Positions 1,228-16,084 of a stretch of DNA of 19,067 nucleotides are shown here, piece by piece; within the stretch, counting starts at the first letter, position 1; each line of letters begins with the position of its first letter. Under the pieces are notes generated by a model. That model worked only from the letters and a program-made list of their open reading frames with translations. It was not told where the DNA came from and ran no database searches. The stretch covers positions 1-19,067 of the forward strand of contig DAOVYP010000005.1 of NCBI GenBank assembly GCA_030635565.1, written 5' to 3'. A program made the translations under genes and the position numbers. The stretch is from Spirochaeta sp. (lineage in GTDB: Bacteria; Spirochaetota; Spirochaetia; DSM-2461).

Positions 1228-1503
1228 ATGAAGATCGGGGAAGTGATCGGCCGAGTGGTCAGCGAAAAGAAAATCGAGAGCTTCAACGGGCTCACACTGC
1301 TGCTGGTACAGCCTCTGGACGAGATGAGGAAACCCGTCGGGAACCCCCTGGTGGCCATTGACACGGTTCGGGCGGGAGAAGGTGATCTGGTGATGTATGA
1401 AGGTGGCAAGGAGGCCGCCATGAGTCTGCCGAACTGGTTCAACCCCGGTGACGCGGCGATTATCGGCATCATTGACGCGCTGTATACGGAGGAAGGAGCA
1501 TGA
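1228..1503 (+). CDS. BMC vertex shell protein, EutN/CcmL family (BMC-P), first copy
   Basis: A 91-residue protein, the normal size for the pentamers that close the vertices of microcompartment shells. It opens MKIGEVIGRVV, followed by the family pattern of a substrate-loop region (LTLLLVQPLDE), the core motif VAIDTVRAGEGDLVMY and a C-terminal AAIIGIIDAL strand. The start ATG follows the dehydrogenase stop with no gap, so the two genes are almost certainly co-translated. It overlaps the second vertex gene by 4 bases (ATGA). Two adjacent, divergent BMC-P paralogues are common in sugar-phosphate and PVM-type loci, where vertices may be mixed. The exact partner hexamers are not in this window. 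Confidence 0.95.
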   Translation: MKIGEVIGRVVSEKKIESFNGLTLLLVQPLDEMRKPVGNPLVAIDTVRAGEGDLVMYEGGKEAAMSLPNWFNPGDAAIIGIIDALYTEEGA

Positions 1504-1775
1504 TTCCGGCCCGTATCATCGGTCAGGCGATCTGTTCCGTCAAAGACGGTATGTACGAAGGTGAAAAGCTCCTTCTGGTCCGTCCGGAGAATCCCGACGG
1601 TTCGTCAGCCGGGGGATCATTCCTGGCGGTGGATGCCGTTCAGGCAGGTCTTGGAGACCTGGTGCTGGTAATCGACGAAGGCGGATCGGCCAGGCAGATT
1701 CTGGACAAATCATCCATGGGTACCATTCGGACGGTAATCGCCGCCGTTATCGATAATATCTCGCTTGGAGAGTGA
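1500..1775 (+). CDS. BMC vertex shell protein, EutN/CcmL family (BMC-P), second copy
   Basis: Also 91 residues and clearly paralogous to the preceding gene: MIPARIIGQAICSVK, LLLVRPENPDG, then VDAVQAGLGDLVLVI and a closing IAAVIDNI strand. The start ATG overlaps the previous stop (ATGA) and sits behind a strong purine-rich ribosome site (GGAGGAAGGAGC). Sequence divergence from the first copy is high outside the core motif, so this is an old duplication and not a recent repeat. The glycine-serine-rich loop (GSSAGGSF) differs from the first copy and would alter the vertex surface. It is followed closely by the isomerase gene. Confidence 0.94.
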   Translation: MIPARIIGQAICSVKDGMYEGEKLLLVRPENPDGSSAGGSFLAVDAVQAGLGDLVLVIDEGGSARQILDKSSMGTIRTVIAAVIDNISLGE

Positions 1776-1777
1776 AC

Positions 1778-2254
1778 ATGAGTGTCAATGAACAGGACAA
1801 TGTGAAACGTGTCTCTCTGGGCTGCGACCACGGGGCTGTTGATGAGAAATTAACCATCAAACGCTACCTGGAAACCCTCGGGTATGTCGTAAAAGATGTG
1901 GGCTGTCAATCAGGAGAACGGGTGGACTATCCGGATATCGCCGCGGCGGTCTGCAGAAAAGTCACATCCGGAGATTGTGAGAGGGGCATCATGCTGGACG
2001 GTGCCGGAATCGGTTCGTCTATGGCCTGCAACAAGGTTCGGGGGATACGGGCGGCACTCTGTTATAACCTGCGGACTGTCATCAACAGCCGGGAGCATAA
2101 TAATGCCAACGTTTTAACCCTGGGCGGTCCTTTGCACGACGCGGGTGAACTCTGTGAAATGGTCAGGGTGTGGCTGCAGACCCGGTTTCCCGGGGGACGG
2201 CACCTGGCAAGGGTCAACAAAATAATGGCCCTGGAGAGGGGAGGAGATTACTAA
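1778..2254 (+). CDS. RpiB/LacA/LacB-family sugar-phosphate isomerase, BMC-associated, with Cys-to-Asp change at the catalytic position
   Basis: The start chosen is ATG 1778, seven bases after GGAG at 1767-1770. An in-frame GTG at 1772 overlaps the previous stop but is only one base from that site. The 158-residue product has the RpiB/LacAB fold pattern: GCDHGA at 16-21 (substrate-binding Asp and His), GAGIGSSMACNKVRGIRAAL near 75-95, and EHNNANVLTLGG near 106-117 (His107 matches the ring-opening His region). Family members isomerise aldose and ketose phosphates such as ribose 5-phosphate/ribulose 5-phosphate. The usual catalytic Cys in the C-G-T-G-I-G loop is Asp74 here (MLDGAGIG), so activity or substrate may differ from classical RpiB. 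RpiB homologues are a recurring part of SPU-type BMC loci, and this placement supports a metabolic role linked to the compartment. The specific substrate is unknown. Confidence 0.88.
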   Translation: MSVNEQDNVKRVSLGCDHGAVDEKLTIKRYLETLGYVVKDVGCQSGERVDYPDIAAAVCRKVTSGDCERGIMLDGAGIGSSMACNKVRGIRAALCYNLRTVINSREHNNANVLTLGGPLHDAGELCEMVRVWLQTRFPGGRHLARVNKIMALERGGDY

Positions 2255-2314
2255 ATGGACCAGAACGCATTGATTGAAAAAATCGCCGAAGAAGTGATGA
2301 AAAGGCTACAGGGC
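2255..2314 (+). other. Probable BMC encapsulation peptide at the DeoC N-terminus
   Basis: The first 20 residues of DeoC (MDQNALIEKIAEEVMKRLQG) form a short amphipathic helix with Ile/Leu/Val/Met on one face and Glu/Lys/Arg on the other. About 20 Pro/Gly/Ser/Asp-rich residues follow, then the barrel domain. This helix-plus-linker layout is the established signature of peptides that target cargo enzymes to BMC shells; ordinary cytosolic DeoC lacks it. The targeting function itself is inferred. Confidence 0.8.
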
Positions 2315-3031
2315 ACCGTCGTCTCATCTCCCCGCCCGGACGGACCCGATGGAACCATTTCCCATGCCGAAATGGCCCGGTACATCGACCATACGCTGCT
2401 GAAACCTGAGTCCACCAATGAGCAGTTCGACCAGATTGTCAAGGAATGTCTTCAGTACAATTTCAAGTCTGTTTGCGTCAATTCGAATTGGGTGGAATAC
2501 GTGGCTCGTCAGCTCCAGGGCTCGGATGCCGAGATCTGTTCGGTGGTAGGTTTTCCCCTTGGTGCCATGACGTCCCGCAGTAAAGCCTTCGAGGCCAGGG
2601 AAGCCCTTGCCGACGGGGCCACGGAAATCGATATGGTTATCAATATCGGTGCCCTGCGCTCGGGGAAATACGATCTGGTGGAAGAGGACATACGTGCCGT
2701 CCGCCGGGCTACCAGGGCCGGTACGGTTCTGAAGGTGATACTCGAAACATGTATGCTCTCCCAGGAGGAAAAGGTGATCGGTTGTGAGCTGTCAAAGAAG
2801 GCCGGGGCGGACTTCGTGAAAACCAGCACCGGTTTCAGCAGCGGCGGTGCCACCGTGGAAGATATCCGGCTGATGCGTCGTACCGTCGGGCCTGATATGG
2901 GTGTAAAAGCCTCGGGCGGTATCCGTACCTGGGATACCGCGGTGGAGCTGATCCGGGCCGGCGCCAACCGGCTGGGTATAGGATCGAGCATCAAGGTGAT
3001 GACCGGCGGGGTCGCCGAAGGCAATTACTGA
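2255..3031 (+). CDS. deoC: Deoxyribose-phosphate aldolase with N-terminal encapsulation-type extension
   Basis: A class I aldolase that cleaves 2-deoxy-D-ribose 5-phosphate to acetaldehyde and glyceraldehyde 3-phosphate. The 258-residue protein has about 40 extra N-terminal residues before the TIM barrel begins at ARYIDHTLLKP (41-51). Visible active-site elements are EIDMVINIG (Asp126), LKVILETC (Lys160), VKTSTGFSSGGAT (Schiff-base Lys189) and VKASGGIRT (Lys218), with a phosphate-binding GSS near 243-245. All the expected catalytic residues are present. The ATG follows a GAGGAG ribosome site and directly abuts the isomerase stop. Together with the CoA-dependent aldehyde dehydrogenase it provides the two steps that produce and consume acetaldehyde in a sugar-phosphate-utilizing BMC. 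It is the last gene of the visible operon; no clear terminator follows. Confidence 0.95.
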   Translation: MDQNALIEKIAEEVMKRLQGTVVSSPRPDGPDGTISHAEMARYIDHTLLKPESTNEQFDQIVKECLQYNFKSVCVNSNWVEYVARQLQGSDAEICSVVGFPLGAMTSRSKAFEAREALADGATEIDMVINIGALRSGKYDLVEEDIRAVRRATRAGTVLKVILETCMLSQEEKVIGCELSKKAGADFVKTSTGFSSGGATVEDIRLMRRTVGPDMGVKASGGIRTWDTAVELIRAGANRLGIGSSIKVMTGGVAEGNY

Positions 3032-3076
3032 TTTCCGGGGATTGCCTTAGCGCCTCGATAATCCTAGTCTTTTACC

Positions 3077-3856
3077 ATGGATTCACTTTATTCCCGGCTC
3101 GCGGATCAATGGGATTTCCTCTTCCCTCCGGATTCAGAACGGATTTCGTTCCTGACTGAAATTTTGGATAATCTGACCTCTGGCGCCCGAATTATCGAGG
3201 TGGGCTGCGGGACTGGGGCTACCGCCATCAGCCTGGCAACCCTCGATTATGCCGTTGCGGCCTCAGATCTCGACACCGACATGACAAAGATAGCGCAGCG
3301 GTCGGCCGGGGAAAGGGCCTCATCAGGCTCGGAGGATTATTACCCTCAGGCCGGTCAGGTTCGCTTCACCGCAGACGATATGATCGGTGCTCTTGAAAAA
3401 GCGCCGGCTCATTCGGCTCATGCCGTTCTGTGTCTCGGCAACACCCTGCCCCACCTGACCGCTGCCGGAGAAATGAGGCGCTTCTTCCCTGCGGCCGGAA
3501 CCGCACTGGTCACCGGGGGTAAACTGGTGATTCAGATTCTCAACTATCCCCGGATTCTCCGCCTGGGGAGCCTGGAATTGCCGGATCTTGAAGGAGACGG
3601 ACTCCTGTTTCGGCGAAGGCAGACCTTTGATGCCGATTCGGGTCTCGTCATCTTCGACACTGAGGTGGAGTCCGGCGGCCGGACAGAACACCGGAGTCAC
3701 AGTCTGCTGCCTGTAGATGTGAAAGACCTGAAGAATCCTGCGCTGGAAGCGGGACTTGCACCCTCCGGGATTTTCCGGGATTGGGAGGGCACTGAGTTTG
3801 ACGGCAGCGCTCCCTGGCTGGTTTCAACATACACAAGTACCGGGGAGAGCTCATGA
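3077..3856 (+). CDS. Class I SAM-dependent methyltransferase
   Basis: A 259-residue protein with the Rossmann-type SAM-binding motif I at IIEVGCGTGATAISLA (39-54), an acidic end of strand 2 at ASDLD and a post-motif strand AVLCLGNTLPHL. This matches small-molecule methyltransferases of the Methyltransf_11/25 type; the substrate cannot be read from the sequence. No good Shine-Dalgarno sequence precedes the ATG. A GATAAT at 3057-3062 is a possible -10 element, but no matching -35 was found, so it is not listed separately. The gap of 45 bases after deoC and the change of theme suggest it is not part of the BMC operon. It overlaps the following oxidoreductase by 4 bases (ATGA), so these two are translationally coupled. 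Confidence 0.82.
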   Translation: MDSLYSRLADQWDFLFPPDSERISFLTEILDNLTSGARIIEVGCGTGATAISLATLDYAVAASDLDTDMTKIAQRSAGERASSGSEDYYPQAGQVRFTADDMIGALEKAPAHSAHAVLCLGNTLPHLTAAGEMRRFFPAAGTALVTGGKLVIQILNYPRILRLGSLELPDLEGDGLLFRRRQTFDADSGLVIFDTEVESGGRTEHRSHSLLPVDVKDLKNPALEAGLAPSGIFRDWEGTEFDGSAPWLVSTYTSTGESS

Positions 3857-5070
3857 AACACTGTAACTTCGTTATTGTCGGTGCCGGAAGTGCCGGCAGA
3901 ACCGCCGCTGAAACTCTTGCAGAAAAAGCCCCGGATGAGTCGATTCTTATTATCGATGCCGAGGATAATCTGCCCTACAAGCGGACCAGGGTGAGCAAAA
4001 ACGTGAAAGCGGGATACGAACCGGATGATTTCGCGGTTCACGAAATGGACTGGTATCAGGATAACGGGGTGGAACTCATGAAGGGACAAGCGGTTATCCG
4101 AATGGATCCCGATGCCCATACCCTGACACTGGAATCAGGATCACTTTCATACTCATCTCTGCTTCTGGCGACAGGCGCACGCCCCCGTATCCCCTTCACA
4201 ATGCCTCCCGGGAATTGGTCCACGTTGTGGACGGTCCGGGACGGACTGGCTCTCCATGAGAAATTCACCGATTTGAAGAAAATCGCCGTTGTGGGTATCG
4301 GAGTACTCGGCGTGGAGGTGGCCTGGCAAACTTCGCTGGCGGGGCTTGAAACGGTACTGGTGGGACGAAATACCCGGCCCATGATGAAATATCTGGATCA
4401 GGTCACCGCTGATCCCCTGGAGAAGGCCATTCGTGAATCAGGTATAACCCTGTACCTTGAACGAACTGTGTTGGATATTGCAGGGCATCCGGAAGGCGAA
4501 GGTATTGTCCTCGAGACCGATAAAGGGCCTCTCGAGGCCGATTTTGCCATTCTCACTGTCGGTGCGAAGCCTGAATTATCATTGGCTCTTTCCTCCGGTA
4601 TCCGGGTCGGGACGGGCATCCTGGTGGATTCTTCCTTGAAAACCTCGGCACCGGATGTCTGGGCGGCGGGAGACTGTGCCGAACATCCCGGCGGTCTGGT
4701 GACGGGCCTGTGGCATTCGGCGGAGCATCAGGGACAGCTGGCGGCTCTCGGCATGCTCGGCCGGTATACAAAAAATGACAATCCGCCGTACCGGTTGAAA
4801 TGCGAGGTATTCGGCGGGTTCTGGTTTTCCGCCGGCCCCGTGAATGCCCCGGTGGGTACAGAATGTCTCGGTCCGGCTGAAACCCGGGGGTCGAAAAGTA
4901 TCATCTGGAGTCTCCGTTTTCGAAATGGAAAAATAGCCGCTATGGCAGCCGCCGCTCCCTCGGGAATGGAGAAATCTGATGCCAAAACGGCACAGAAGCT
5001 CCTGTTGGACGGTGCCGGCCGGGATGAGGTACATTCGGTACTGTTTGACCGTTCCCCGGCTCTCCGCTAA
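3853..5070 (+). CDS. FAD-dependent NAD(P)H oxidoreductase (rubredoxin/ferredoxin reductase-like)
   Basis: A 405-residue two-dinucleotide-fold flavoprotein (Pyr_redox_2). The FAD site is VIVGAGSAGRTAAE (residues 7-20), followed by ATGARP (106-111). The NAD(P)H fold is VVGIGVLGVEVA (146-157), and the second FAD motif is VWAAGDCAEH (269-278). There is no CxxC redox-active disulfide, so it is not a disulfide reductase or thioredoxin reductase. The layout fits rubredoxin-NAD reductase, NADH oxidase or nitrite-reductase-like enzymes; the electron acceptor is unknown. It overlaps the methyltransferase gene (ATGA). Its last 12 codons lie inside the direct repeat that borders the downstream island, and a second copy of this 3' end is found about 8.66 kb further on. 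The gene itself is intact. Confidence 0.88.
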   Translation: MKHCNFVIVGAGSAGRTAAETLAEKAPDESILIIDAEDNLPYKRTRVSKNVKAGYEPDDFAVHEMDWYQDNGVELMKGQAVIRMDPDAHTLTLESGSLSYSSLLLATGARPRIPFTMPPGNWSTLWTVRDGLALHEKFTDLKKIAVVGIGVLGVEVAWQTSLAGLETVLVGRNTRPMMKYLDQVTADPLEKAIRESGITLYLERTVLDIAGHPEGEGIVLETDKGPLEADFAILTVGAKPELSLALSSGIRVGTGILVDSSLKTSAPDVWAAGDCAEHPGGLVTGLWHSAEHQGQLAALGMLGRYTKNDNPPYRLKCEVFGGFWFSAGPVNAPVGTECLGPAETRGSKSIIWSLRFRNGKIAAMAAAAPSGMEKSDAKTAQKLLLDGAGRDEVHSVLFDRSPALR

Positions 5071-5096
5071 GGTGAAGTCATGAAACGAACGCTGCT
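5034..5096 (+). repeat. Island-flanking direct repeat, left copy (63 bp)
   Basis: This stretch matches 13690-13753 base for base except for one missing G in the intergenic part (GGTGAAGTC here, GGTGGAAGTC there). It contains the last 12 codons of the oxidoreductase gene, the short spacer and the first 16 bases of the outer-membrane-protein gene. The sequences diverge at once on both sides (A/T at 5033/13689 and T/G at 5097/13754). The two copies bracket the LacI/ABC/phosphoesterase block. Confidence 0.95.
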
Positions 5097-5107
5097 TTCC
5101 GCGTAAC
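5081..5107 (+). pseudogene. Stub of the outer-membrane-protein gene left at the insertion point
   Basis: ATG plus the next codons (MKRTLL) are identical to the start of the beta-barrel protein at 13737, including the ribosome site in front. The sequence changes after base 5096 and a TAA follows at 5105-5107, giving the eight-residue peptide MKRTLLSA. It is the orphaned 5' end created when the island was inserted, and shows that the outer-membrane-protein gene originally followed the oxidoreductase gene by about 10 bases. Confidence 0.85.
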
Positions 5108-5138
5108 TGCTACCAAAGAATCACCACAAGATTGGGAC

Positions 5139-5300
5139 TCACCGCGTCTTTGAACAGCGGTACAACAGTCTTGCTTCCGCCCGATTGGGCAGTGCAACAA
5201 ATTCCGAAAGAATGTGAGATTTGTCCCTTTTCCCGACTCTACGGTACCTCCTACTGACTTCTCTGGTTAATTCCTTTCGTGATTTCATAGACAGCCTCAT
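5139..5300 (-). pseudogene. Truncated transposase/integrase gene (N-terminal fragment)
   Basis: On the minus strand an ATG at 5298-5300 follows a strong GGAGG ribosome site (5310-5314). It opens a 53-codon frame with segments KSRKELTREVSRRYRRVGKR and SHILSEFVA. This resembles the N-terminus of a group of integrase-core (rve/DDE) transposases, in which a basic K-E-L-T-x-x-V-x-x-R-Y segment precedes a helix-turn-helix ending L-x-E-F-V-A-x-T-G-Y. The likeness stops after about residue 36 (near base 5192), and a stop comes at 5139. The catalytic core is missing, so the gene is dead. Assignment rests on recognising a short N-terminal pattern, so the family is uncertain; the strong ribosome site and the basic N-terminus support a real gene start. 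Confidence 0.6.
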
Positions 5301-5346
5301 AGCCCCGAACCTCCTTTTTCAAAGGTCGTTCGAGTAGATTTTAGTT

Positions 5347-5389
5347 ATGAGGCAACCACTATGTTTGGAATAGATTATTCATGAGGCAA
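5347..5389 (-). repeat. Paired TTGCCTCAT direct repeats upstream of the transposase remnant
   Basis: The 9-mer TTGCCTCAT (plus-strand ATGAGGCAA) occurs at 5347-5355 and again at 5381-5389, 34 bases apart, just upstream of the minus-strand transposase start. Short repeats at this distance from the gene fit transposase-binding sites in an IS terminus. The corresponding other end of the element was not found. Confidence 0.45.
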
Positions 5390-5398
5390 TTCGGCCTG

Positions 5399-5427
5399 TT
5401 GACAGCGCTGACGACCTGTAGTACAAT
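5399..5427 (+). promoter_or_regulatory. Sigma-70 promoter of the island operon
   Basis: A consensus -35 box TTGACA (5399-5404), a 17-base spacer and a -10 box TACAAT (5422-5427; five of six consensus bases). Transcription would start near 5434. It points at the LacI-family gene and the five transport/phosphoesterase genes behind it. Confidence 0.85.
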
Positions 5428-5438
5428 TCAACCATGAG

Positions 5439-5454
5439 GTCGAAACGTTTCGAC
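5439..5454. promoter_or_regulatory. LacI-family operator, perfect 16-bp palindrome
   Basis: GTCGAAACGTTTCGAC is its own reverse complement and has the central C-G with flanking A/T tracts typical of LacI/PurR/CcpA-type operators (core GAAACGTTTC). It lies about 5-20 bases after the predicted transcription start, where bound repressor blocks polymerase. The next gene encodes a LacI-family regulator, so negative autoregulation of the whole operon is the likely arrangement. I saw no second copy of this palindrome elsewhere in the window. Confidence 0.87.
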
Positions 5455-5537
5455 AAAATTGAGAAACAAAGGGTGCTTATTCATGGGACTTCGGAGAGCG
5501 GTCTTTGCTCCCGTCGCAGACGTAAGGTTATGGCGGC

Positions 5538-6566
5538 ATGAGTAGACTGAAGAAGAAAAGAGCAACGATCACTGACATAGCGAGAGAGGCCGGCACCTCG
5601 ATCTCCACGGTCTCATACGTGCTGAATGATGGCCCGAAACCGGTGTCTAAAGAAAACCGAAAAAAAATCCTTGATGTAGTTCACCGCCTCTCTTATACCC
5701 CGGACATGGTTGCCAGAGGTCTGAAGCGCAGAAGGACCATGTCGCTTGGTGTCATTTTCCCCGACATGACCAACACCTATTTTCCGGAGATTTTGAGGGG
5801 CATTCTGGAAATCACCCAACATGAAAAATACAACATCATGCTCAGGAATGCGTCCCAAAGTGTCGCTGCTCAGAATGACTGTATCCGGGATCTGTTATCA
5901 CAGCGAGTGGATGGTTTTATCATCAGGCCGATAGCAGGGAGCCAGGTACCTGCTATACTTTGTGACTCGGGAATTCCCTTTGTGGTTGTGGACCGCTCTG
6001 AACGTGGATGGAAACGGTACGACTCTGTATCATTGAACAACCGGAAAGCAATCAGTACAGCGGTCGAAATGCTGGTTCGTGAAGGACACGAGAGCATTGC
6101 CCTGATCACTGGACCTAGGGAAACGGGCACCAGCATCGAAAGAGTGAATGGATTCATGGATGCCTCAGATCTCCATCGGCTTCGTGAGGATAAATGTCGT
6201 GTCCTGTACGGGAAGTACTCTGTTGAAACGGGTCGTGATTCCGTACACACGATCCTCAATGAGAACCCCGGTATCTCGGCAGTGGTTACGGCAAGCACAG
6301 CAATCACTTTTGGGGCGATCCAGGAACTCAGACGACAAGAGATGAGAATCTCTGTTGAAATGTCTTTGGTGGCATATGGCTACTCGAAATGGCTGACACT
6401 TCTCTTCCCTCCTGTCACAACAATCGAACAGCCGGTGGTCGAGATGGGTAGAAGGGCGGTGCACATTCTCCTCCAGTGCATCGAAAAAGAAGATAGCGGG
6501 AGTCGAGTGCGGGAAATCATTGATCCGGTAATTATTGATGGGGTATCCCATCAATCGAATTTCTAA
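5538..6566 (+). CDS. LacI-family transcriptional regulator
   Basis: A 342-residue protein of normal family length. The N-terminal helix-turn-helix is ATITDIAREAGTSISTVSYVLN (residues 9-30), followed by the hinge region VSKENRKKILDVVHRLSYTP and VARGLK. A type I periplasmic-binding-protein-like effector domain then runs from about residue 68 (MSLGVIFPDMTNTYFPEILRG) to the end. ATG 5538 is preceded by TAAGG at 5523-5527. It is the first gene of the island operon, 17 bases before the binding-protein gene, and sits just downstream of its probable operator. It likely represses the operon until a ligand related to the transported compound binds. The ligand is unknown. A 20-codon frame starting at 5483 overlaps its start. 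Confidence 0.93.
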   Translation: MSRLKKKRATITDIAREAGTSISTVSYVLNDGPKPVSKENRKKILDVVHRLSYTPDMVARGLKRRRTMSLGVIFPDMTNTYFPEILRGILEITQHEKYNIMLRNASQSVAAQNDCIRDLLSQRVDGFIIRPIAGSQVPAILCDSGIPFVVVDRSERGWKRYDSVSLNNRKAISTAVEMLVREGHESIALITGPRETGTSIERVNGFMDASDLHRLREDKCRVLYGKYSVETGRDSVHTILNENPGISAVVTASTAITFGAIQELRRQEMRISVEMSLVAYGYSKWLTLLFPPVTTIEQPVVEMGRRAVHILLQCIEKEDSGSRVREIIDPVIIDGVSHQSNF

Positions 6567-6583
6567 GTGCAAGGAGATGCATC

Positions 6584-7591
6584 ATGAAAAGGCTAGTGAT
6601 TCTAGTAGTAGTTCTATCTATGTTTGGCGGTTATTGCATGGCGGAGGCGCAGGGAGAGGTGCCTGCAACGGAAGGGGAGCTCTCCGGATCCGTAACAATC
6701 TATACGTCAATGCGGAGGGCGGTCATCGAGAAATTGAAGGCGGACTTCGAAGCAGGGTACCCCGGCACAACGATCGACGTGTACAGGTCCGGCACCAGCG
6801 AAGTTCTGGCCAAATTTCAGGCGGAGGAGTCCGCAGGTGCTGTTCAGGCGGACATACTGTCGGTCGCCGACATGTCCGTGTTCAGAGACCTCTATGCCAA
6901 CGGAATGATCTCGGGTTATAGCCCAGAGAATCTGGACCAGATCAACGAAATGTTCAAGCACGAGAACGGTGACTACAACGAGTACCGGTGGTCGGGTGTT
7001 AGCATTATCTACAATACCAACATGGTTGAGACTTCTCCAACTAGCTGGGCCGATCTACTCGCGCCCGAATACGAGGGCAAGATTGTCATGGCAGACCCTC
7101 AGTATTCTGGAACCGTTGTGGCCACGATTGGCACGCTGGTCAACACCCCCGGTCTCGGTTGGGAGTTCTTCGAGGAGTTCGCAGCCAACGGTGGAACGGT
7201 TGTCAAGAGCAATGGAGAGGTAGGCAAGACTGTAGCCGGGGGCGAGTTTGCCGTTGGTATCATCGTTGATGGCAACGCCTACAATCTGAAGGTCGATGGG
7301 TCTCCGGTTGACTATGTGTACCCCGATGAGGGTTCGGTGCTTCTGGTTCAGCCGATAGCGATCCTGGACAATTGCACAAACATGACGCTCGCCAGAGCGT
7401 TCCTGGACTATATGTACAGCGAGGAGGCCATGCGCGGCATGACGGAAAATGGCTACGTGCCGGTTCTTCCCGGAACCTCAGTGATAGACTTGGATTTCGA
7501 CGCGGTCAAGCTGCTCGAAACAGATTGGGGCTATATCTCTGAGAATCGAGGCGAGATGGTGGAACGCTTCTTGTCCTTATTCAACCAATAG
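6584..7591 (+). CDS. ABC transporter periplasmic substrate-binding protein, AfuA/FbpA type
   Basis: A 335-residue exported binding protein with a hydrophobic signal segment at residues 1-22. AEA followed by Q at 21-24 is a plausible signal-peptidase I site; Cys18 has Tyr before it and is not a convincing lipobox. The mature domain begins LSGSVTIYTSMRRAVIEKLKADFEAGYPG, a hallmark of the extracellular binding-protein family that includes iron (FbpA/FutA), sugar-phosphate (AfuA) and 2-aminoethylphosphonate binders. Also visible are GVSIIYNTNMV, SWADLL and ILDNCTNMTLARAFLDYMYS. FbpA ferric binders normally show paired Tyr ligands near the C-terminal half; I do not see a YY pair, so ferric iron is less likely than an organic phosphate. 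A strong AAGGAGAT ribosome site lies at 6571-6578. The substrate is inferred from neighbouring phosphoesterases. Confidence 0.88.
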   Translation: MKRLVILVVVLSMFGGYCMAEAQGEVPATEGELSGSVTIYTSMRRAVIEKLKADFEAGYPGTTIDVYRSGTSEVLAKFQAEESAGAVQADILSVADMSVFRDLYANGMISGYSPENLDQINEMFKHENGDYNEYRWSGVSIIYNTNMVETSPTSWADLLAPEYEGKIVMADPQYSGTVVATIGTLVNTPGLGWEFFEEFAANGGTVVKSNGEVGKTVAGGEFAVGIIVDGNAYNLKVDGSPVDYVYPDEGSVLLVQPIAILDNCTNMTLARAFLDYMYSEEAMRGMTENGYVPVLPGTSVIDLDFDAVKLLETDWGYISENRGEMVERFLSLFNQ

Positions 7592-7614
7592 CACCCGGAA
7601 TCAGGAGCGCCCAC

Positions 7615-9345
7615 TTGATCACATCCAATACCCATACCTGGCAACGAAGAGAGCGTGTCCTGGAAAGAAAGTCCGGCCTGTCACCCGGTTGGTGGTGGGT
7701 CGGGTTGCTGGTGGTGATGATTGTAACGGGATACCCTCTTCTGCAATTGCTCCTGAAGATACTTCAATTCGACGGGAGGCTATCGCTTGAAAGTTTGCAT
7801 GTTGCATTCACGGGAAAGAAATACCTCACCTCATTCCTGAACACCCTGTATGTCGGCTTGCTCACGACCACCTTCTCGTTACTGATCGGTGTACCGCTTG
7901 CCCTGGTCGTCGGTCGGATAAGGATTCCGGGCGGCAAGTTGTTGAGGGTGATACTGATGATCCCCTACCTGATCCCAGGATTTGTCTTCGCTTTCGCGTG
8001 GAGAGAGTTGCTCGGGCCGGTCGGCTACCTCAACAAGTTCTATATGTTGATCAGCGGCGCATCAGAACCCCTCTTCAGCATCTACGGGCCGGTCGGTGTC
8101 GTTCTGATCCTCGTGTTGCGGGGATATCCGATAGTATTCATCACGGTCATTCGAAGTCTGCGAAACATGAATGCAGGGTACGAGGAGGCGGCGGAAGTCT
8201 TCGGAGCCGGGAGTCTCCAAACTATGCGGACCATTACCCTGCCATTGATGCTGCCGTCTATCTCCGGGGCGGCAATCCTGGTCTTCTCCAGCTCAATAGC
8301 AAACTTTGGAGTCCCGGCAATTCTTGGCAGCCCGGAAGGATTCTATGTCCTCACCACCCAGATCTACTCAACGATCCTTTCCTACGGGCTGGACAACAAT
8401 CTCAACATCGCCGCTTCTCTTTCTCTATACTTGATCGCAGCCGGGCTGTTGTTCCTGGGGCTTCAATCGAGGATCATTTCACGGCGCAGTTATGTAGTTG
8501 TAACGGGCAAAGGAGGCAGAACCGACCTCGCACCACCGGGGCCAGAAGGCTGGGTCTATACACTCGTTCTGAGTTTGATGGGATTTGCTCTCGTAATTCT
8601 TCCCCTCGTTGCGATAGGCCTTTCATCCATCACGCGAGCCTATGGACTAATGCCTAGATTTGAGAACTTCACATTAAAACACTTTACCTCGCTTCTGACA
8701 GATACATTTACGACAACGGCCCTTAGGAACTCGTTTTTTCTTGCATTTCTTTCAGCTACGCTGTGCACGATCATCGGATTCTTGATTGCCGTTGTGACCG
8801 AGAGATCAAAGATTCTGGGCCGAAAGATTCTGGATTTTGTCGCAACGACGCCACGTTCAATCCCGGGGACAATCATTGCCCTCGCCTTCATTCTGGCCTG
8901 GATCCGGCCTATACCTCTGCTCGGGATTTCGCTGTACAACACCTTCTGGATTATTCTACTGGCCTATCTTTCGCGTTTTCTCGGTTATACGGTGCGGACT
9001 ATTAGCGCAACCCTCAAACAGATCTCGCCGTCTTTGGAAGAAGCGTGCCTGATTTCCGGGGGCAAGAACTGGCAGCGGATCGCCCACATTCTGACGCCTC
9101 TGAGCGTGGAGGGTCTTGCAGGCGGATGGCTCCTGGTCTTTATTCCTTCTCTGAATGAATTGACGATGTCGATCTTACTATATTCTTCCGGCAAGGAGAC
9201 AATAGGAGTAGCGGTCTTCTCGCTACTCCAGGAAGGTAAGATCGGGCGTGCTGCCGCATTCTCCATCGTAATAATCGTGATCGTTCTCCTAGGAGACAGG
9301 CTTCTCCACAGGGTCACAAAAGGCAAGAGGAGCCTTCTGGGATGA
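7615..9345 (+). CDS. ABC transporter fused double permease (FbpB/AfuB type)
   Basis: A 576-residue membrane protein consisting of two tandem BPD_transp_1 permease domains, about twelve transmembrane helices in all. The first helix is near residues 26-50. EAA loops, which contact the ATPase, occur in both halves: YEEAAEVFGAGSLQTMRTIT near 194-213 and LEEACLISGGKNWQRIAHIL near 474-493. Fused permeases of this layout accompany AfuA/FbpA-type binding proteins. The start is a TTG at 7615, supported by AGGAG at 7603-7607 and by the absence of a better ATG. The gap from the binding-protein gene is 23 bases, so one transcript is expected. Confidence 0.9.
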   Translation: MITSNTHTWQRRERVLERKSGLSPGWWWVGLLVVMIVTGYPLLQLLLKILQFDGRLSLESLHVAFTGKKYLTSFLNTLYVGLLTTTFSLLIGVPLALVVGRIRIPGGKLLRVILMIPYLIPGFVFAFAWRELLGPVGYLNKFYMLISGASEPLFSIYGPVGVVLILVLRGYPIVFITVIRSLRNMNAGYEEAAEVFGAGSLQTMRTITLPLMLPSISGAAILVFSSSIANFGVPAILGSPEGFYVLTTQIYSTILSYGLDNNLNIAASLSLYLIAAGLLFLGLQSRIISRRSYVVVTGKGGRTDLAPPGPEGWVYTLVLSLMGFALVILPLVAIGLSSITRAYGLMPRFENFTLKHFTSLLTDTFTTTALRNSFFLAFLSATLCTIIGFLIAVVTERSKILGRKILDFVATTPRSIPGTIIALAFILAWIRPIPLLGISLYNTFWIILLAYLSRFLGYTVRTISATLKQISPSLEEACLISGGKNWQRIAHILTPLSVEGLAGGWLLVFIPSLNELTMSILLYSSGKETIGVAVFSLLQEGKIGRAAAFSIVIIVIVLLGDRLLHRVTKGKRSLLG

Positions 9346-9453
9346 CCAAGGTATTTGAACGAAGGGTATGGAGCGATACCACCGAAGCATTTGAATATTG
9401 CATACAAGACCGATGCGTTCGATGTCAGAACTGTTTTAAAGGATGGAAAAGCG

Positions 9454-10527
9454 ATGGCTGATGTTCAATTTAACAAGATAACAAAGAGGTTTGGCGACAT
9501 AACTGCCGTCTCGGATTTCAGCCTCTCCATCGAAGAGGGCGAATTCATTACACTCCTGGGTCCATCCGGGTGTGGCAAGACAACCACATTACGTCTTTTA
9601 GCCGGTTTCTATCCGCCAAGTTCCGGCAGTATAAAAATAGGTGGGGAACCGGCCAGCGATCTTGAGCGAAACGTTTTCCTGCCCCCGGGACGACGTAGGC
9701 TCGGGATGGTTTTTCAAGACTATGCCCTTTGGCCCCACATGACTGTCTCTGACAATGTCAGATACCCTCTCAAGATAGCAGGCAGACCGCGGACCGAGCA
9801 GAATGCAAAGGTTGATGAGATCCTGGCGATCGTTGAGATGTCGGGTTGCGAACAGAGGTTCCCCCATGAGCTTTCCGGAGGCCAACAACAGCGTATCGCC
9901 CTGGCGCGGGCACTTATTTCAGACCCGAGAGTCCTTCTCCTTGATGAGCCGCTCTCAAATCTCGATGCGTCTTTAAGAGAGAACATGAGGGTGGAGATCA
10001 AGAACATCCACAGGCGACTGGGTGTTTCGATTCTCCTCGTCACTCACGACCAGGCAGAAGCCATGTCAATGTCAGACAGGATTGTGGTGATGGACCATGG
10101 GTGCATTCATCAGATCGGAACGCCCGAAGAACTCTACGACTCGCCTGTAGACGAATTCGTTGCCTCTTTTGTAGGGAAGGCAAATTTTTTCAAGGTCAGA
10201 CAAGTTGGCACGATGCTCTATCTCTGTGGCGACAGCAGGAGTGACGGTGCTTTCGCTGACGAAGAATTTCTTCAGCCACTTGAGTCCGCTCACATTCAAG
10301 GAAGTCCCGTCAGGGGTTTGGGGTGCGCCAAACCAACAGACTTTCAAATTTCAAGAGACGCTCCGACGGGGGCCCATGGTATCATCGAGAGCTCTCTCTT
10401 TATTGGTGACTCGGTTGTCTACTATGTTAGGGTCGGTTCGATACAGTTTCAGGTGAAGACTGAGGACCGGAGTTTTGAAATTGGCACCGATGTTTCGGTT
10501 TCCTTCAAGAAGGTTATCCTCTTCTAG
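9454..10527 (+). CDS. ABC transporter ATP-binding protein with TOBE-type C-terminal domain
   Basis: The ATPase subunit of the importer, 357 residues from ATG 9454. The frame is open back to a TTG at 9355, but ATG 9454 has an AAGGATGGA ribosome site and gives the normal family start. Walker A is GPSGCGKT (36-43), Q-loop Gln88, signature LSGGQQQR (140-147), Walker B VLLLDEP (160-166) and H-loop His198 (LVTHDQAEAMSMSDR). The C-terminal 120 residues form the regulatory OB/TOBE-like domain seen in PotA, FbpC and UgpC. The 108 bases between the permease stop and this start are unusually long for the operon and contain no separate gene. The stop TAG shares its G with the GTG start of the next gene. 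Confidence 0.92.
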   Translation: MADVQFNKITKRFGDITAVSDFSLSIEEGEFITLLGPSGCGKTTTLRLLAGFYPPSSGSIKIGGEPASDLERNVFLPPGRRRLGMVFQDYALWPHMTVSDNVRYPLKIAGRPRTEQNAKVDEILAIVEMSGCEQRFPHELSGGQQQRIALARALISDPRVLLLDEPLSNLDASLRENMRVEIKNIHRRLGVSILLVTHDQAEAMSMSDRIVVMDHGCIHQIGTPEELYDSPVDEFVASFVGKANFFKVRQVGTMLYLCGDSRSDGAFADEEFLQPLESAHIQGSPVRGLGCAKPTDFQISRDAPTGAHGIIESSLFIGDSVVYYVRVGSIQFQVKTEDRSFEIGTDVSVSFKKVILF

Positions 10528-11729
10528 TGGAGTACACATTCATCAATCCCAACACCTATTTCATCACCGAAAACGTCAGTCCATCGTCCGTCCTGTTCTC
10601 TTTTGCTGCTCCTCGGGCTTCGATCTTTCACATCAGGACAACATCTGCGAGTGGCCGGATCAGCAATGCATCAACGAAGGAACTCAATATTGTTGGAAGG
10701 CTTGAGATCGGAGATCTTGAAGAGGGGCTTATGCATACGGCTGAATGTACTATTGAAACGCCGAGCACACATTCTACTGAGGTACCGACCACGCTTGCCC
10801 ACTCAGGGGGGGATCAGCATCGTCCACCACAGGAGTGTTTTTCTGTAGGGCCCTATTCTGTCACTTTCAAAACTCTTGACCGACCGACAGGTCGACCAAT
10901 GATCCACCTTGCGGTAGTCGGAGACCCTCACATATCCGTTAACAGGACGAACCGGAGGGGCAGGCTTTTCGTGGAGTCCAAGCTGCTCCTTCAGGACATT
11001 GCAGAGAAGCTGGAGTCCGAACAATGCGATGTCCTTCTCATACCCGGGGATCTTACTGACCGCGGATCCTCCGACGAATTGAAAGAGGCTATGAAATCTC
11101 TGTCCGGTTTTTCGGGCCGGAAATATGTGATCCCCGGCGACCACGACTGCGGTGACAAACAAAGCAAGAAGCCCGGGAGCTTCCGTTTGTCCGAACTTGC
11201 CCCCGAGGGACTCCCGTTCTTCGCATCGCTGGGACCCTTTGGTGTTCTTGGTCTGGACACTTCGTCCGGTAGGTTGGAAAGAGGGCAAATGCAGGAACTG
11301 GCGCGCAGACTGGCAGAGGAGAATTTCCTTCTTATTCTCAGCCATTACAATCTCATAGAGAATCCCGAAATCATAGATGAAGACGCCTGTATCGAAAATC
11401 ACAAAGAGACTCAAGATCTTTTAGGCCGGTCCCGTGCCAGATGGATCATCTACTCGGGCCATAAGAACATCCCGGTTCGTCTCAACCTACCGCGAGGGTG
11501 CCAGGTCAATGCAAGCCAGCCAAATCAGTACCCGGCCGGATATATTACTATCCAGGTGTACGAAGACACAGTTGTCCACCAGTTCGTTCCTATTCGGAGC
11601 GAAGCTCTGAGAAACTACTCCATGCGAATGCTGGCGGAGGATAAGTCTCCCTCCTTTCACCCGATATACCGTTACGGCAAACTCTACGCCCGAAGCTTCA
11701 GTTATAGTTGGAAAGACGGTGGCAGCTAG
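10527..11729 (+). CDS. Calcineurin-like metallophosphoesterase with variant metal-site motifs
   Basis: A 400-residue protein without a signal peptide, starting at GTG 10527 in the overlap TAGTG. The first 120 or so residues form a domain I do not recognise, predicted to be beta-rich. The metallophosphoesterase domain follows: GDPH (Asp133, His135), PGDLTDRG (Asp175), PGDHD (204-207) and LSHY (His273), ending in SGHKN (His312). In typical members the third motif is GNH[DE] and the last is GHxH. Here Asp205 replaces the metal-binding Asn and Asn314 replaces the final His. Both substitutes can ligate metal, so it may be active with altered metal or substrate preference, or it may be impaired. 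Its place between the importer and a second phosphoesterase points to cytoplasmic hydrolysis of an imported phosphoester. The substrate is unknown. Confidence 0.85.
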   Translation: MEYTFINPNTYFITENVSPSSVLFSFAAPRASIFHIRTTSASGRISNASTKELNIVGRLEIGDLEEGLMHTAECTIETPSTHSTEVPTTLAHSGGDQHRPPQECFSVGPYSVTFKTLDRPTGRPMIHLAVVGDPHISVNRTNRRGRLFVESKLLLQDIAEKLESEQCDVLLIPGDLTDRGSSDELKEAMKSLSGFSGRKYVIPGDHDCGDKQSKKPGSFRLSELAPEGLPFFASLGPFGVLGLDTSSGRLERGQMQELARRLAEENFLLILSHYNLIENPEIIDEDACIENHKETQDLLGRSRARWIIYSGHKNIPVRLNLPRGCQVNASQPNQYPAGYITIQVYEDTVVHQFVPIRSEALRNYSMRMLAEDKSPSFHPIYRYGKLYARSFSYSWKDGGS

Positions 11730-13663
11730 TGATTCCCTTTAATCCAGGCGACGTTGTTGGAGCAAATCTCAGTGCGTTGTGGCGGAAATATGTCAAGGAG
11801 GCCGAAGCGGTTTCCCGGAAGACGAGCGGGATCAGCACGACGATGCAGATCAGTCCGTCGCAGGTGATCTGTGGGCGTAAGGTGTCCCTGAAGCTGACTT
11901 TCGAAACCGAGAGCCCCCTTCAATCCGGTGGCTTCATCGTATTCGATTTGCCCCAAGGATGGGGAGGATGGAAGAGTGAGCAGGACACCAGTCTTCTCCA
12001 AAAGTCGGGAGGAACTCGGGCCTATCTGAAGGGGACGAAAGAGAGCCTCGTAACCCGTGTCATCTCCCGAGGAAGCCGGTTGTCCATCATCGAAGTTCTA
12101 CTACCGGAATCAGGCAATGATCTCGCTTCCGGGGTAGTTGTGCAACTTCCACCGCTTCTCCCCTGCGACCGGCCGGGACGCTACGGTTTTCATGCTTTTT
12201 GGGGCGGATCAGAGTGGGGGTTCGAGCAGATCGCTTCGGAAGAGCTCACAGTTGTCGCCGGGTCTTTCAACGGTTTCGATCTCCTCTATCCTTCCTCAGT
12301 CGACCCAGGACAGGAGATAATAGTGCGGCTACGGGCCCGCGCAGGAGCCGAGAGTAGCTATTTCAGCTGCTGTGAGTCGGGAACAGACGTTGAGTTTCTG
12401 TGGTCAGGAATAGACGATGCACAATTTGTTGCTGTATCTTTGCCGGTTGAAGAAGACCTTTCAGAAGCGGATGCCGGCCTTCGGGAAGGAACCGAGTCAC
12501 CGGAAGAAACTGGTGACTCGGTTCCGATCAGGGGCTTGTATCTGAAAGAGAAGGTTGGAACAGTACAGATCCGATTCGAATCCGGGAACGGCAGCCGGCA
12601 ACATCAAAGAGGACATCCTGTGGTCTCCTCCCAATTATTAGACGGGATGAAGGTCTTTTTCGGCGACCTCCATGTTCATACCGAAAAATCAGACGGCATC
12701 GGCTCTGCTGCGGAGGCCTATTGTTGGGCGTTGGAAGGAGCCGGGCTCGACTTCCTGGCGCTGAATGATCATGTGGAGGACCGGCTTACATACCAAACCC
12801 CATGGAACGAATCAGCTTGGTCGGAACTTTTGAATGAAGCTTGGAGTCACTCCCACCCCGGTCGTTTCGTTGCTATCCCTGGAGTAGAGATCTGTGGCGC
12901 GGTCAACCTGTATTTCAACGACTACGACTTTCCCTTCTTTCCTCTGCACACCCTGGATGGAGACGTGGATGGAACGGGACGATTTCTCCAGAAGGTTTCG
13001 GAAGATTCGAGGGTCTTGTTCGGCTACCACAAGCTCTCTCAACTGGGGGAGCACTATCTGGACTATCCCGTTCCCCGGTTGCTGGAGATTATACAGCACA
13101 AGAGAGAACCCGAATTAGGCGTTGAAAGGTTCCTTCCTGGATGCGACAGTCCTCCCTCGTTTCTGGGTGCGACGGACTCCCACTGTGGCTTGGCCGCTTC
13201 CCCCCCGATGGGGTTCACGCGAGATGAAGCTCAATATGGCTTAACAGGAGTCGTGGCGGAGGCGCTCACTATGGAGGCACTCTTCACTTCCTTGGCCGCG
13301 GGGAGAACCTTTGCCACTTCGGGTCAGAAGAGCATCGCGCTGCTTAAGGTTAATGGCGTTCCAATGGGCGGGACAGTTCAGATTGCTCATCGGCAGACAG
13401 AACTTGAGGTAGCTATCCAAGTGTGGGCATGTAGCCGAATCGAGAAGCTGGAGCTGATGTGCAATGGGCGACTGGTCAAGGAAAAGGAAGTGTCCGGGAA
13501 TAGGTTTGGCGGTGGACTCAAGATTCCTTGGACCCCGCTGCGGGAATCCTTTGGGAATAATCACATCCCATTCTGTCGGTGTCACATCTACCTCAGAGTC
13601 ACCGAAGAAACGGGAATGAGGATCTGGAGTTCTCCCGTACTCGTACTGGGAGAACAAATATAA
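11729..13663 (+). CDS. DUF3604/PHP-domain metal-dependent phosphoesterase with long N-terminal beta domain
   Basis: GTG 11729 is preferred because it repeats the TAGTG stop-start overlap of the previous junction; a TTG at 11708 would add seven residues. The product has 644 residues and no signal peptide. Residues 40 to about 290 look like beta-sandwich material, with an acidic low-complexity stretch near 241-265. The C-terminal part is a PHP/DUF3604 domain with a full set of candidate metal ligands: GDLHVHTEKSDG (His315, His317, Asp322), NDH (His348), PGVE (Glu387), YHK (His434) and TDSH (Asp483, His485). The family pattern GLTGVVAEALTMEALFTSLA plus RTFATSG is typical of DUF3604. PHP enzymes hydrolyse phosphoesters with a trinuclear metal centre. 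It is the last island gene; the hairpin after it is too weak to call a terminator. Confidence 0.87.
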   Translation: MIPFNPGDVVGANLSALWRKYVKEAEAVSRKTSGISTTMQISPSQVICGRKVSLKLTFETESPLQSGGFIVFDLPQGWGGWKSEQDTSLLQKSGGTRAYLKGTKESLVTRVISRGSRLSIIEVLLPESGNDLASGVVVQLPPLLPCDRPGRYGFHAFWGGSEWGFEQIASEELTVVAGSFNGFDLLYPSSVDPGQEIIVRLRARAGAESSYFSCCESGTDVEFLWSGIDDAQFVAVSLPVEEDLSEADAGLREGTESPEETGDSVPIRGLYLKEKVGTVQIRFESGNGSRQHQRGHPVVSSQLLDGMKVFFGDLHVHTEKSDGIGSAAEAYCWALEGAGLDFLALNDHVEDRLTYQTPWNESAWSELLNEAWSHSHPGRFVAIPGVEICGAVNLYFNDYDFPFFPLHTLDGDVDGTGRFLQKVSEDSRVLFGYHKLSQLGEHYLDYPVPRLLEIIQHKREPELGVERFLPGCDSPPSFLGATDSHCGLAASPPMGFTRDEAQYGLTGVVAEALTMEALFTSLAAGRTFATSGQKSIALLKVNGVPMGGTVQIAHRQTELEVAIQVWACSRIEKLELMCNGRLVKEKEVSGNRFGGGLKIPWTPLRESFGNNHIPFCRCHIYLRVTEETGMRIWSSPVLVLGEQI

Positions 13664-13689
13664 CTGTGAGATAAACACAGCCGTTGTCT

Positions 13690-13753
13690 TTCGGTACTGT
13701 TTGACCGTTCCCCGGCTCTCCGCTAAGGTGGAAGTCATGAAACGAACGCTGCT
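13690..13753 (+). repeat. Island-flanking direct repeat, right copy (64 bp)
   Basis: Second copy of 5034-5096, with one extra G. It begins with the orphaned 3' end of the oxidoreductase gene (through the TAA at 13724-13726) and continues through the ribosome site into the first 17 bases of the outer-membrane-protein gene. The duplicated 3' end has no upstream coding sequence here, so the right copy is the scar of the insertion. Confidence 0.95.
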
Positions 13754-14351
13754 GATAATTCTTATCTCAATTACCCCGGCATTTCTTTTCGCCCAGGAGA
13801 GTGATGTCCTGCGCCTCGGGTTGAAAGTCGGTCCTAATTTCTTCTTCGGCAGCGGAACACCATCCCACCCTGAGGTAACCGGCACACGACTGACCGTCGG
13901 ATTTATCGGCGGAGGTTTCATCGAGTTCGTTCCTATTGATAACCTCTCCGTCGAACTTGATGTACTCCTCACCTGGTTCAACTACGGAGTGAATACGAGT
14001 CTTCCGTCGGAAACTCTGACGCTGCAGTACACCGCCATGGAATTTCCCCTCATCATCAAGGGGCGCCTGCCTCTGGGGCCGGGAACGGCCTTTCTCGGCA
14101 TAGGCCCGGATTTCATAATTCTGATGGGTAAAGTAAATATCAAAACTGGAACCAGCACCATCACTAAGAATGCGGATCAGATTTTCCATACGGCGCTGAT
14201 TTTTTCCGGCGGTTATGACTGGGCTATAAACGGTGATTCCAATCTGACGTTGGAATTGCGCTATCTCCGGAGTTTTTCTTCACCGGCGGACAGCGCCGAT
14301 ATCAACGCCAACCGGTTTGATTTGCTCATCGGGTGGTCGGTAAACTTCTAG
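13737..14351 (+). CDS. Outer-membrane beta-barrel protein
   Basis: The start is ATG 13737, behind AAGGTGG; an in-frame TTG at 13701 lies in the duplicated oxidoreductase tail and is artificial. The 204-residue product has a signal peptide (MKRTLLIILISITPAFLFAQ, cleavage near AQ/E). Alternating beta-strand sequence follows (LRLGLKVGPNFFFG, GFIGGGFIEFVP, LSVELDVLLTWF), ending in Phe (LIGWSVNF), the usual C-terminal signal for BAM-mediated insertion. It fits the generic outer-membrane beta-barrel family (OMP_b-brl type, eight to ten strands). Its role is unknown. Before the island inserted it would have been the third gene after the methyltransferase and oxidoreductase. It has now lost that upstream promoter and probably depends on read-through from the island or a promoter I cannot see. 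Confidence 0.85.
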   Translation: MKRTLLIILISITPAFLFAQESDVLRLGLKVGPNFFFGSGTPSHPEVTGTRLTVGFIGGGFIEFVPIDNLSVELDVLLTWFNYGVNTSLPSETLTLQYTAMEFPLIIKGRLPLGPGTAFLGIGPDFIILMGKVNIKTGTSTITKNADQIFHTALIFSGGYDWAINGDSNLTLELRYLRSFSSPADSADINANRFDLLIGWSVNF

Positions 14352-14371
14352 ATTCAGGCAATCCGGGGTTT

Positions 14372-14848
14372 CTATTCCGGAAGTATCTCCGGGTAGAGAA
14401 TATCCAACCCCGCGAAATCCTCGTTCTGAGTGAAACGACCCCTGGCATATTCCAGATCCAGGTATGTCAGTGGTTTCACTTCAATTTTTGATTTGCTTAT
14501 AATCTGAATTTTATAGGGGACGAGACTGATTTTTCCCGCGGGTGCATTGATTTCGAAGCTCTCTACCCCCGATATGGTGAGTCCTTTGGCAACTGTCCAG
14601 CCGGTGGCATTAAGAACGTCTGCCGGGATCGTGCGGACAACGGCGGCCGGGGCTTTCAATACAAGCCTGAGAGGTTTCTCCAACCCGGCAATATGAAGAT
14701 TCGCGCTGGGCTTGATGATGGGTTTGTGGAATTCCTCAACATAAAAAAACAAAATACTTTCGTCAGACTCGGGTTGGTAATTCACGGACGAACATGAAAA
14801 AAGGGCTATACTTGATAAAACGGCAATGATAAGGATTGTTCTGCTCAT
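14372..14848 (-). CDS. Hypothetical lipoprotein
   Basis: A 158-residue protein on the minus strand, convergent with the outer-membrane-protein gene (20 bases between stops). The N-terminus is a lipoprotein signal ending SIALFSC, with Cys19 as the lipidation site. The mature part is mixed and has no motif I recognise; the region IEVKPLTYLDLEYARGRFT is its most distinctive stretch. No clear Shine-Dalgarno sequence precedes the ATG. The location suggests a cell-envelope function, but nothing more can be said. Confidence 0.75.
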   Translation of the reverse strand: MSRTILIIAVLSSIALFSCSSVNYQPESDESILFFYVEEFHKPIIKPSANLHIAGLEKPLRLVLKAPAAVVRTIPADVLNATGWTVAKGLTISGVESFEINAPAGKISLVPYKIQIISKSKIEVKPLTYLDLEYARGRFTQNEDFAGLDILYPEILPE

Positions 14849-14957
14849 TTTTTAAAGTATGGGTGAGTTATCATTAAAGATCCAGAAACTGATAAAAATA
14901 CTGGTTTTTCAATGAACTGAGTACGATTATTGAATCGGAAGAAATAAAGGATGGATT

Positions 14958-15395
14958 ATGAAAAATAAAAAATTATGGGTTCTCATTCTGCTCTCGGCCC
15001 TGTTCTGGGCCTCTTGTGCAACCCCTCCTCCGGAAGAGGTTGAGGAGCCGGTCATCGAAGCCGTGGATGATAAAGCCCCTATGGAAGAAGCGAAAGCTGC
15101 TGCCGGCAGCGCCAGGGAATCTGCCGTTGAAGTCAAAGCCCCCAAGGCGGCAGCTGATGAATTTGATTCAGCCCAGTCTCTCTTTGAACAGGCCGCAGAG
15201 GCTGAAGCGCAGGGCGATTACTCTGAAGCAACGGCCCTTTATGATCGGTCGGCTGAGGGATTCAAGGCCTCAGCAGATGCGGCTGTAAAGGCGCGGGAAG
15301 CGGCCGAGGCCGCCATGGCTGCCGCCGATCAGGCCATTGCCGATTCCGAAGCGGCAGCTGATAAAGCCCTTCTTTCGGCTGCGGAGGATCAATGA
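14958..15395 (+). CDS. Alanine-rich helical lipoprotein
   Basis: A 145-residue protein with a lipoprotein-type signal (LLSALFWASC, Cys20; Trp at -3 is unusual but fits the relaxed spirochaete lipobox). A Pro/Glu linker (TPPPEEVEEPV) leads into a long Ala/Glu/Asp-rich helical region with coiled-coil character and a TPR-like piece, FEQAAEAEAQGDYSEATALYDRSAEGF (residues 76-102). It resembles the small Ala-rich DUF4398-like lipoproteins often found beside LysM proteins. The stop overlaps the next gene's ATG (AATGATG), so the two are translationally coupled and probably act together at the cell wall. The ribosome site is AAAGG near 14946-14950. Confidence 0.78.
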   Translation: MKNKKLWVLILLSALFWASCATPPPEEVEEPVIEAVDDKAPMEEAKAAAGSARESAVEVKAPKAAADEFDSAQSLFEQAAEAEAQGDYSEATALYDRSAEGFKASADAAVKAREAAEAAMAAADQAIADSEAAADKALLSAAEDQ

Positions 15396-16084
15396 TGAAA
15401 AAGCTTATATTATCAGCCCTTGCTTTGTTGTTGATATCCGGAGCCGCCTGGTCTCAGTCCCTTGAGGATAATGAGTATTTCCAGAAAATGCTTGAGCTCA
15501 GACGTCAGAGTGAACAATCCTTTGAGGAAGGCGATTACGCGGAGGCTAAACGCCTGGCGGTTGAAGCCCAAAGCTACAGCGAGCAATCAAAACGCTGGAT
15601 CGAATCACAGCTTGCAGCATACCGCGCCCGGTCTGCCCTGACTCGTCTCAAGGACCGCCTGGCCCAGGTTTCAAAATGGAACGCTCAGACGAATTTCCCT
15701 GATGAATATTCCGAAGGTACAGCTCTCTACAACCAGTCTTTCGGAGAGTTCCATGATGACGGGAAATACGTTGCCAGTCTGGCGACATCGAATAAGGCCC
15801 TGGGGATTCTTTCGGTCATAGAGTACATTCCGGTTAAATCAGAACTACCGGCGTATTATGTCGTTCGTCTGCTGCCGGGAAACACCGATTGCCTGTGGAA
15901 CATCGCCGGATATGATTTTATTTATGATGATCCCTGGAGTTGGCGAACAATCTACAATGCCAATAAAAACATCATGCCGGAAAGGGATAATCCGGATCTG
16001 ATTCATCCGGGAATGATACTGTCGATACCTCCACTGGACGGCGAATTGCGTTCAGGGACCTGGGAGGACGGAGTTATTAAATAA
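15392..16084 (+). CDS. Periplasmic LysM-domain protein
   Basis: A 230-residue protein with a signal peptide (MMKKLILSALALLLISGAAW, cleavage near SQ). A helical TPR-like section (EQSFEEGDYAEAKRLAVEA, residues 41-59) is followed by a C-terminal LysM peptidoglycan-binding domain at about 155-213. That domain is recognised from YYVVRLLPGNTDCLWNIAGY, the WRTIYNANK motif and IHPGMILSIP. It presumably anchors at peptidoglycan, while the coupled lipoprotein upstream anchors in a membrane; this pairing suggests a structural or scaffold role. An ATG at 15395 is an equally possible start. A palindromic hairpin follows the stop. Confidence 0.87.
   Translation: MMKKLILSALALLLISGAAWSQSLEDNEYFQKMLELRRQSEQSFEEGDYAEAKRLAVEAQSYSEQSKRWIESQLAAYRARSALTRLKDRLAQVSKWNAQTNFPDEYSEGTALYNQSFGEFHDDGKYVASLATSNKALGILSVIEYIPVKSELPAYYVVRLLPGNTDCLWNIAGYDFIYDDPWSWRTIYNANKNIMPERDNPDLIHPGMILSIPPLDGELRSGTWEDGVIK

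Follow-up and report, generated by a model that had tools for sequence, protein, structure and literature searches.

Tyrosine recombinases, according to a review (PMC5704250), act mostly between direct repeats of 8–60 bp, and a frequent target is the 3′ end of protein genes, which are left unbroken. The same review defines cis-mobilizable elements (CIMEs) as elements that have lost their integration and transfer genes and kept attL and attR. A second point of comparison is provided by the ssrA islands of Dehalococcoides, for which PMC3146451 reports a tmRNA target, a 20-bp repeat and related islands that bear an integrase.

Many acquired operons carry no trace of integration genes, and their route of entry is usually no longer readable. 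Here we analyse a 19,067-nucleotide stretch of Spirochaeta sp. DNA (the window), which is contig C584 of a 2.97-Mb draft assembly comprising 589 contigs and rated 77.75% complete. Comparison with a same-genus genome makes it very probable that an operon was recently inserted here, at the junction of an oxidoreductase gene and an outer-membrane protein (OMP) gene, leaving 63 bp of junction at each end and both genes whole. The block belongs to a known general type of genomic island, and its insertion is young, with both joints intact and the empty site visible in a sister species. A literature search on titles and abstract openings returned no report that we recognised as this island.

Results

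The upstream host gene encodes an intact pyridine nucleotide-disulphide oxidoreductase (3853..5070, + strand; Pfam PF07992) and the downstream gene an intact outer-membrane beta-barrel-like protein, the OMP (13737..14351, +; PF13568 at 26.7 bits against a cut-off of 27). Between them lies a block of 8,593 bp (5097..13689, +), bordered on both sides by the junction sequence. The left copy (5034..5096, 63 bp, +) holds the last 11 codons and stop of the oxidoreductase coding sequence, a short spacer and 17 nt from the start of the OMP coding sequence; the right copy (13690..13753, 64 bp, +) has the same content and then continues into the entire OMP coding sequence. Stretches of 41 bp and 23 bp are identical in the two copies, and between these stretches the right copy has an additional G. 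This bears out the 63/64-bp direct repeat described in an earlier note on this DNA. That note had also placed the repeat away from any tRNA, and the window indeed contains no tRNA.

With up to 3 mismatches allowed, the 41-bp part of the repeat occurs at only 2 places in the window (shuffle mean 0, n = 200), and searching the draft assembly at the DNA level returned the same two places with no third at E <= 0.001, some short contigs that read as N being perhaps unsearchable. As a control we counted direct repeats with a minimum of 30 bp and 95% identity that lie more than 500 bp apart. The window holds one, the junction pair. The same genome gave none in 208,455 bases (40 contigs drawn, 31 of them readable), and neither did a one-contig genome of the same family, sampled as 20 pieces of 20 kb (400 kb). 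A looser cut (at least 25 bp and at least 90%, first 20 contigs) added one further direct pair, 152 bp at 90% (L078).

Might the arrangement be an effect of assembly? A free circle with one copy of the junction, coexisting with an empty chromosome, could be spelled as one linear contig; the draft is broken into 589 contigs, and a circle sharing the junction would make a loop in the assembly graph. Against this, the longest exact word common to the copies is only 41 bp, which makes a simple k-mer artefact unlikely, and there is the one-base difference between them, which the earlier note had fairly set against a trivial assembly duplicate. Both junction-to-block joints would, moreover, still need to be real, and Pfam recognised a replication protein in none of the six block products. 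We regard this explanation as very unlikely.

The oxidoreductase was searched for in 98 genomes, the window's own included, and an orthologue was found in a genome of the same genus, G008, at 63% identity, the next best rows reaching at most 39%. DNA of G008 contig C45 aligns to window positions 3032-5027, 5042-5088 (47 bp, 81%), 14270-16084 and 16322-16656. There the methyltransferase, the oxidoreductase, the junction, the end of the OMP gene, a reverse-strand ORF and the genes beyond are contiguous. The junction is present once, the block is absent and synteny holds on either side, and from this we conclude that the 8,593-bp block is an insertion. G008 is the sole empty site found; it supplies the block-free, single-copy junction that the earlier note had proposed looking for in relatives, and agrees with its view that the two genes side by side are the ancestral state. 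The right flank can be read in G008 only from the OMP end onward, because the middle of that gene is mostly lost.

The OMP gene of G008 is itself an internal-deletion remnant (L046, G008:C45, about 5613-5707): only 5-9 codons precede an out-of-frame jump to the final 29, and the deletion begins within a few codons of the point where the window repeat ends. Farther left, a deoC-like gene beside the methyltransferase has opposite orientations in the two genomes (window 2754-2971, L046 2966-3183). Window positions 10-3031 encode an aldehyde dehydrogenase, two EutN/CcmL shell proteins, RpiB and DeoC and resemble the end of a locus for a bacterial microcompartment, of the sugar-phosphate type.

When 61 genomes, counting that of the window, were searched at the DNA level with the junction, E fell below 0.01 only in the window's own genome, G008 (5.7e-6) and G040 (1.0e-4). 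The last of these covers 27 bp at 93% on the start-codon side of the repeat (L129, G040:C344:4542-4568), in a genome of another family, and may be merely a similar gene start.

The repeat copies also bear on the age of the event. They show substitutions at 0 of 63 positions, which puts a 95% upper bound of about 4.6% on their divergence, whereas the G008 flanks align with the window at about 65-66%; the insertion must therefore have taken place long after the two lineages split. We infer that constraint should not mask change, one copy lying, at each position, outside its intact gene of origin. In G008 the ribosome site is spaced as in the left copy of the window, and the additional G on the right therefore looks derived.

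To judge from its predicted products, the block is a complete six-gene co-directional operon for uptake and hydrolysis with its own regulator inside. The genes, all on the + strand, encode a LacI-family regulator (5538..6566; Pfam PF00356, PF00532), an ABC transporter substrate-binding protein (6584..7591; PF13343 and other Pfam families), a double-domain ABC permease (7615..9345; PF00528 in two stretches), an ABC transporter ATPase (9355..10527; PF00005, PF08402), a calcineurin-like metallophosphoesterase (10527..11729; PF00149) and a weakly classified PHP/CehA-like hydrolase (11708..13663; PF12228 at 20.2 vs 20.4 bits, NF038032 at 59.5 vs 80). The best curated matches of the binding protein, permease and ATPase are PhnS2, PhnU2 and PhnT2 (NCBIfam), a putative 2-aminoethylphosphonate transporter, but all three fall below the cut-offs (140.9 vs 392.75, 198.2 vs 593.25 and 334.2 vs 457.7 bits). 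These scores do not support identification with that transporter, the equivalog cut-offs being missed by every one of the three proteins; since the best models score so far below cut-off, an organophosphorus substrate is only a guess. Unlike PhnS2/PhnU2/PhnT2, the block adds a phosphoesterase and a second hydrolase after the transporter genes. Identical copies of block proteins P0001, P0015 and P0025 stand on records whose longest contigs are 4,815, 3,220 and 5,246 bases, not 19,067, and which are perhaps other assemblies of the same population.

Upstream of the regulator, a consensus scan found a promoter-like TTGACA-17-TACAAT (5399..5427, +; 11/12), followed by a perfect palindrome, TCGAAACGTTTCGA (5440..5453, +), a possible LacI-family operator. 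Promoter-like sites number 8 in the region against 6.8 in shuffles, and the palindrome finds at least one match with up to 2 mismatches in 16 of 200 shuffles; because shuffles yield similar sites, promoter and operator roles are putative. The leader (5097-5537) matches nothing in the genome besides itself, and Rfam gave no match at gathering score. The only hairpin between the last cargo gene and the OMP gene is a weak one of 5 pairs (13664-13680), so the OMP gene may now be co-transcribed with the new operon.

The named close relatives of the block proteins are Spirochaetales or Spirochaetia records, the closest full-length relative of the binding protein being 71% identical. Relatives of the hydrolase genes are scattered. 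Of 97 other relatives, 8 match the PHP-like protein, each of them weakly and partially (lowest E 1.2e-9); of 96 others, 18 match the phosphoesterase alignment, again weakly throughout (lowest E 1.4e-12, where the window gives 3.4e-175). A strong phosphoesterase homologue (E <= 1e-40) occurs in 1 of 393 other sampled genomes of the class, G202, and none of the 97 relatives of G202 has one at E <= 1e-30. A scan of genome contigs found a PHP relative encoded at three loci. At the first (L047, JAFGQJ010000100.1) it is 47% identical and the ATPase-phosphoesterase-PHP order is kept, with other genes adjoining; at the second (L048, DRHE01000155.1) it is a shortened remnant; at the third (L049) the match is weak, 28%. 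Within L048 (8442-9942, a Spirochaetales contig) the ATPase frame runs into the PHP-like piece with no phosphoesterase ORF between, and this relative of the operon looks decayed.

Because the relatives of the cargo are so patchy, with a strong phosphoesterase in only 1 of 393 genomes, a horizontal gain of the block appears likely, draft incompleteness weakening each single absence. Its composition does not mark it as foreign: GC is 0.520 (left flank 0.565, right 0.513) and the tetranucleotide correlation with the genome sample is 0.604 (left 0.539, right 0.694; 5 of the 20 sampled contigs being N). A phage origin was rejected, there being no viral-contig relative by PHP alignment or by exact 22-mer of the repeat, as was a plasmid origin, for which the PHP protein gave one weak plasmid match at 23.5% identity.

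The earlier note had seen no integrase inside the block, and a Pfam scan of the six block proteins likewise recognised neither integrase nor transposase. Of the smaller ORFs the scan covered one, a 36-codon piece at the left block edge and a candidate truncated donor gene, which has no Pfam match. The whole genome has three PF00589 matches, none on the window contig. Two are on C188 among hslVU- and fts-like genes and, to judge from those neighbours, we take them to be XerC and XerD. The third, a 405-aa integrase, adjoins tRNA-Met on C198 (L067, G000:C198, 2234-3617), probably an ordinary tRNA island, and its surroundings share not one 9-mer with the repeat.

Several classes of element were considered and set aside. 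An autonomous integrative element (ICE, IME or prophage) would need an integrase gene, and none was recognised among the block proteins; an integrated plasmid of the Campbell type would need homology shared with its circle and a replication protein, and none of the latter was recognised in the six proteins scanned. Usual transposition target duplications are far shorter than 63 bp. A DDE transposon was rejected on the 63-bp duplication, the lack of a recognised transposase and the lack of an inverted repeat of at least 20 bp joining the block ends. Nor does the repeat resemble an Xer/dif-type site, matching 12 of 28 positions of a dif consensus, against 17 for the best place in the window. Its dyad symmetry is not beyond chance (48 of 60 shuffles as good). 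No second element with the junction site was found in the draft genome, in viral contigs (exact 22-mer) or in the 61-genome DNA search.

Discussion

The earlier note offered two mechanisms for the arrangement, single-crossover integration of a circle or the action of an unusual recombinase. The insertion common to both is supported by G008. An unusual recombinase is not required, since tyrosine recombinases, according to PMC5704250, commonly use such repeats and sites. Single-crossover homologous integration is possible, and would need a circle that already bore the junction sequence: a short homology of 63 bp with one difference could suffice, and a donor allele could account for the extra G. 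The presence of a host junction on a foreign circle is left unexplained by this route, and there is no other copy of the junction in the draft genome or, by exact 22-mer, in viral contigs. We judge it distinctly unlikely.

Entry may also have needed no integrase at all, a route absent from the earlier note. In a template-switch capture, synthesis would exit after the junction, make one lap of an 8.6-kb circle and re-enter 63 bp upstream. That no recombinase was recognised among the block proteins and no dyad in the repeat is in keeping with such a route, and the circle joint would share 2 bp with the point of exit and 3 bp with that of re-entry. Microhomology summing to at least 5 bp arose in 0.54% of draws (200,000, made at random from the sampled contigs; P about 0.005), a post hoc test, however, of a feature noticed beforehand, and one that exists only if the block was a circle. 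A literature search at listing level found no bacterial precedent. On balance we consider template switching possible but rather unlikely, and we give slightly less credence to its full form, in which a foreign circle of ~8.6 kb was copied in without a recombinase at 2-3 bp of microhomology and the junction was duplicated by re-entry 63 bp upstream. If true, it would amount to additive operon gain without homology arms or integrase, with the neighbouring genes intact.

Among these near-equal routes, att recombination in trans is the most likely. The horizontally acquired 8.6-kb operon would probably have come in as a circle; an integrase supplied from elsewhere, in trans, would have recombined the junction of the chromosome, in a site-specific manner, with a similar sequence on that circle; and the repeats would be attL and attR of an integrase-less, CIME-like island. 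The repeat spans the 3′ end of a protein gene, its length is at the top of the range usual for tyrosine-recombinase sites (PMC5704250), and integrase-less islands with direct repeats have been reported from Dehalococcoides (PMC3146451). Several observations pull the other way. Neither an integrase nor a remnant of one was recognised in the block despite the recency of the event, the repeat has no dyad above shuffles and runs on past the end of the gene into the following ORF, a second element with the site was not found, and the lone island-type integrase of the genome has no 9-mer in common with the repeat. We therefore put forward the whole account, a recent horizontal insertion as a circle via att recombination with an integrase acting in trans, only as a tentative preference.

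The island differs from CIMEs, as PMC5704250 presents them, in having no trace of former mobility genes and no neighbouring same-site element that we could find, and the att role of its repeats is putative. Like a CIME, it has a direct repeat on either side, lies at the 3′ end of a protein gene, leaves the target gene whole and contains no recognised integrase: the repeat-flanked block is missing from the orthologous site of G008, and Pfam recognised no integration or transfer genes in the six block proteins. Unlike the Dehalococcoides ssrA islands (PMC3146451), it occupies a protein-gene junction, has a repeat of 63 bp and has no related island among those found. It shares with them the placement of metabolic genes between direct repeats, some of those islands likewise being without integration genes. 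Young and with its empty site visible in a relative, the insertion provides a concrete case in which att recombination in trans can be weighed against integrase-free capture.
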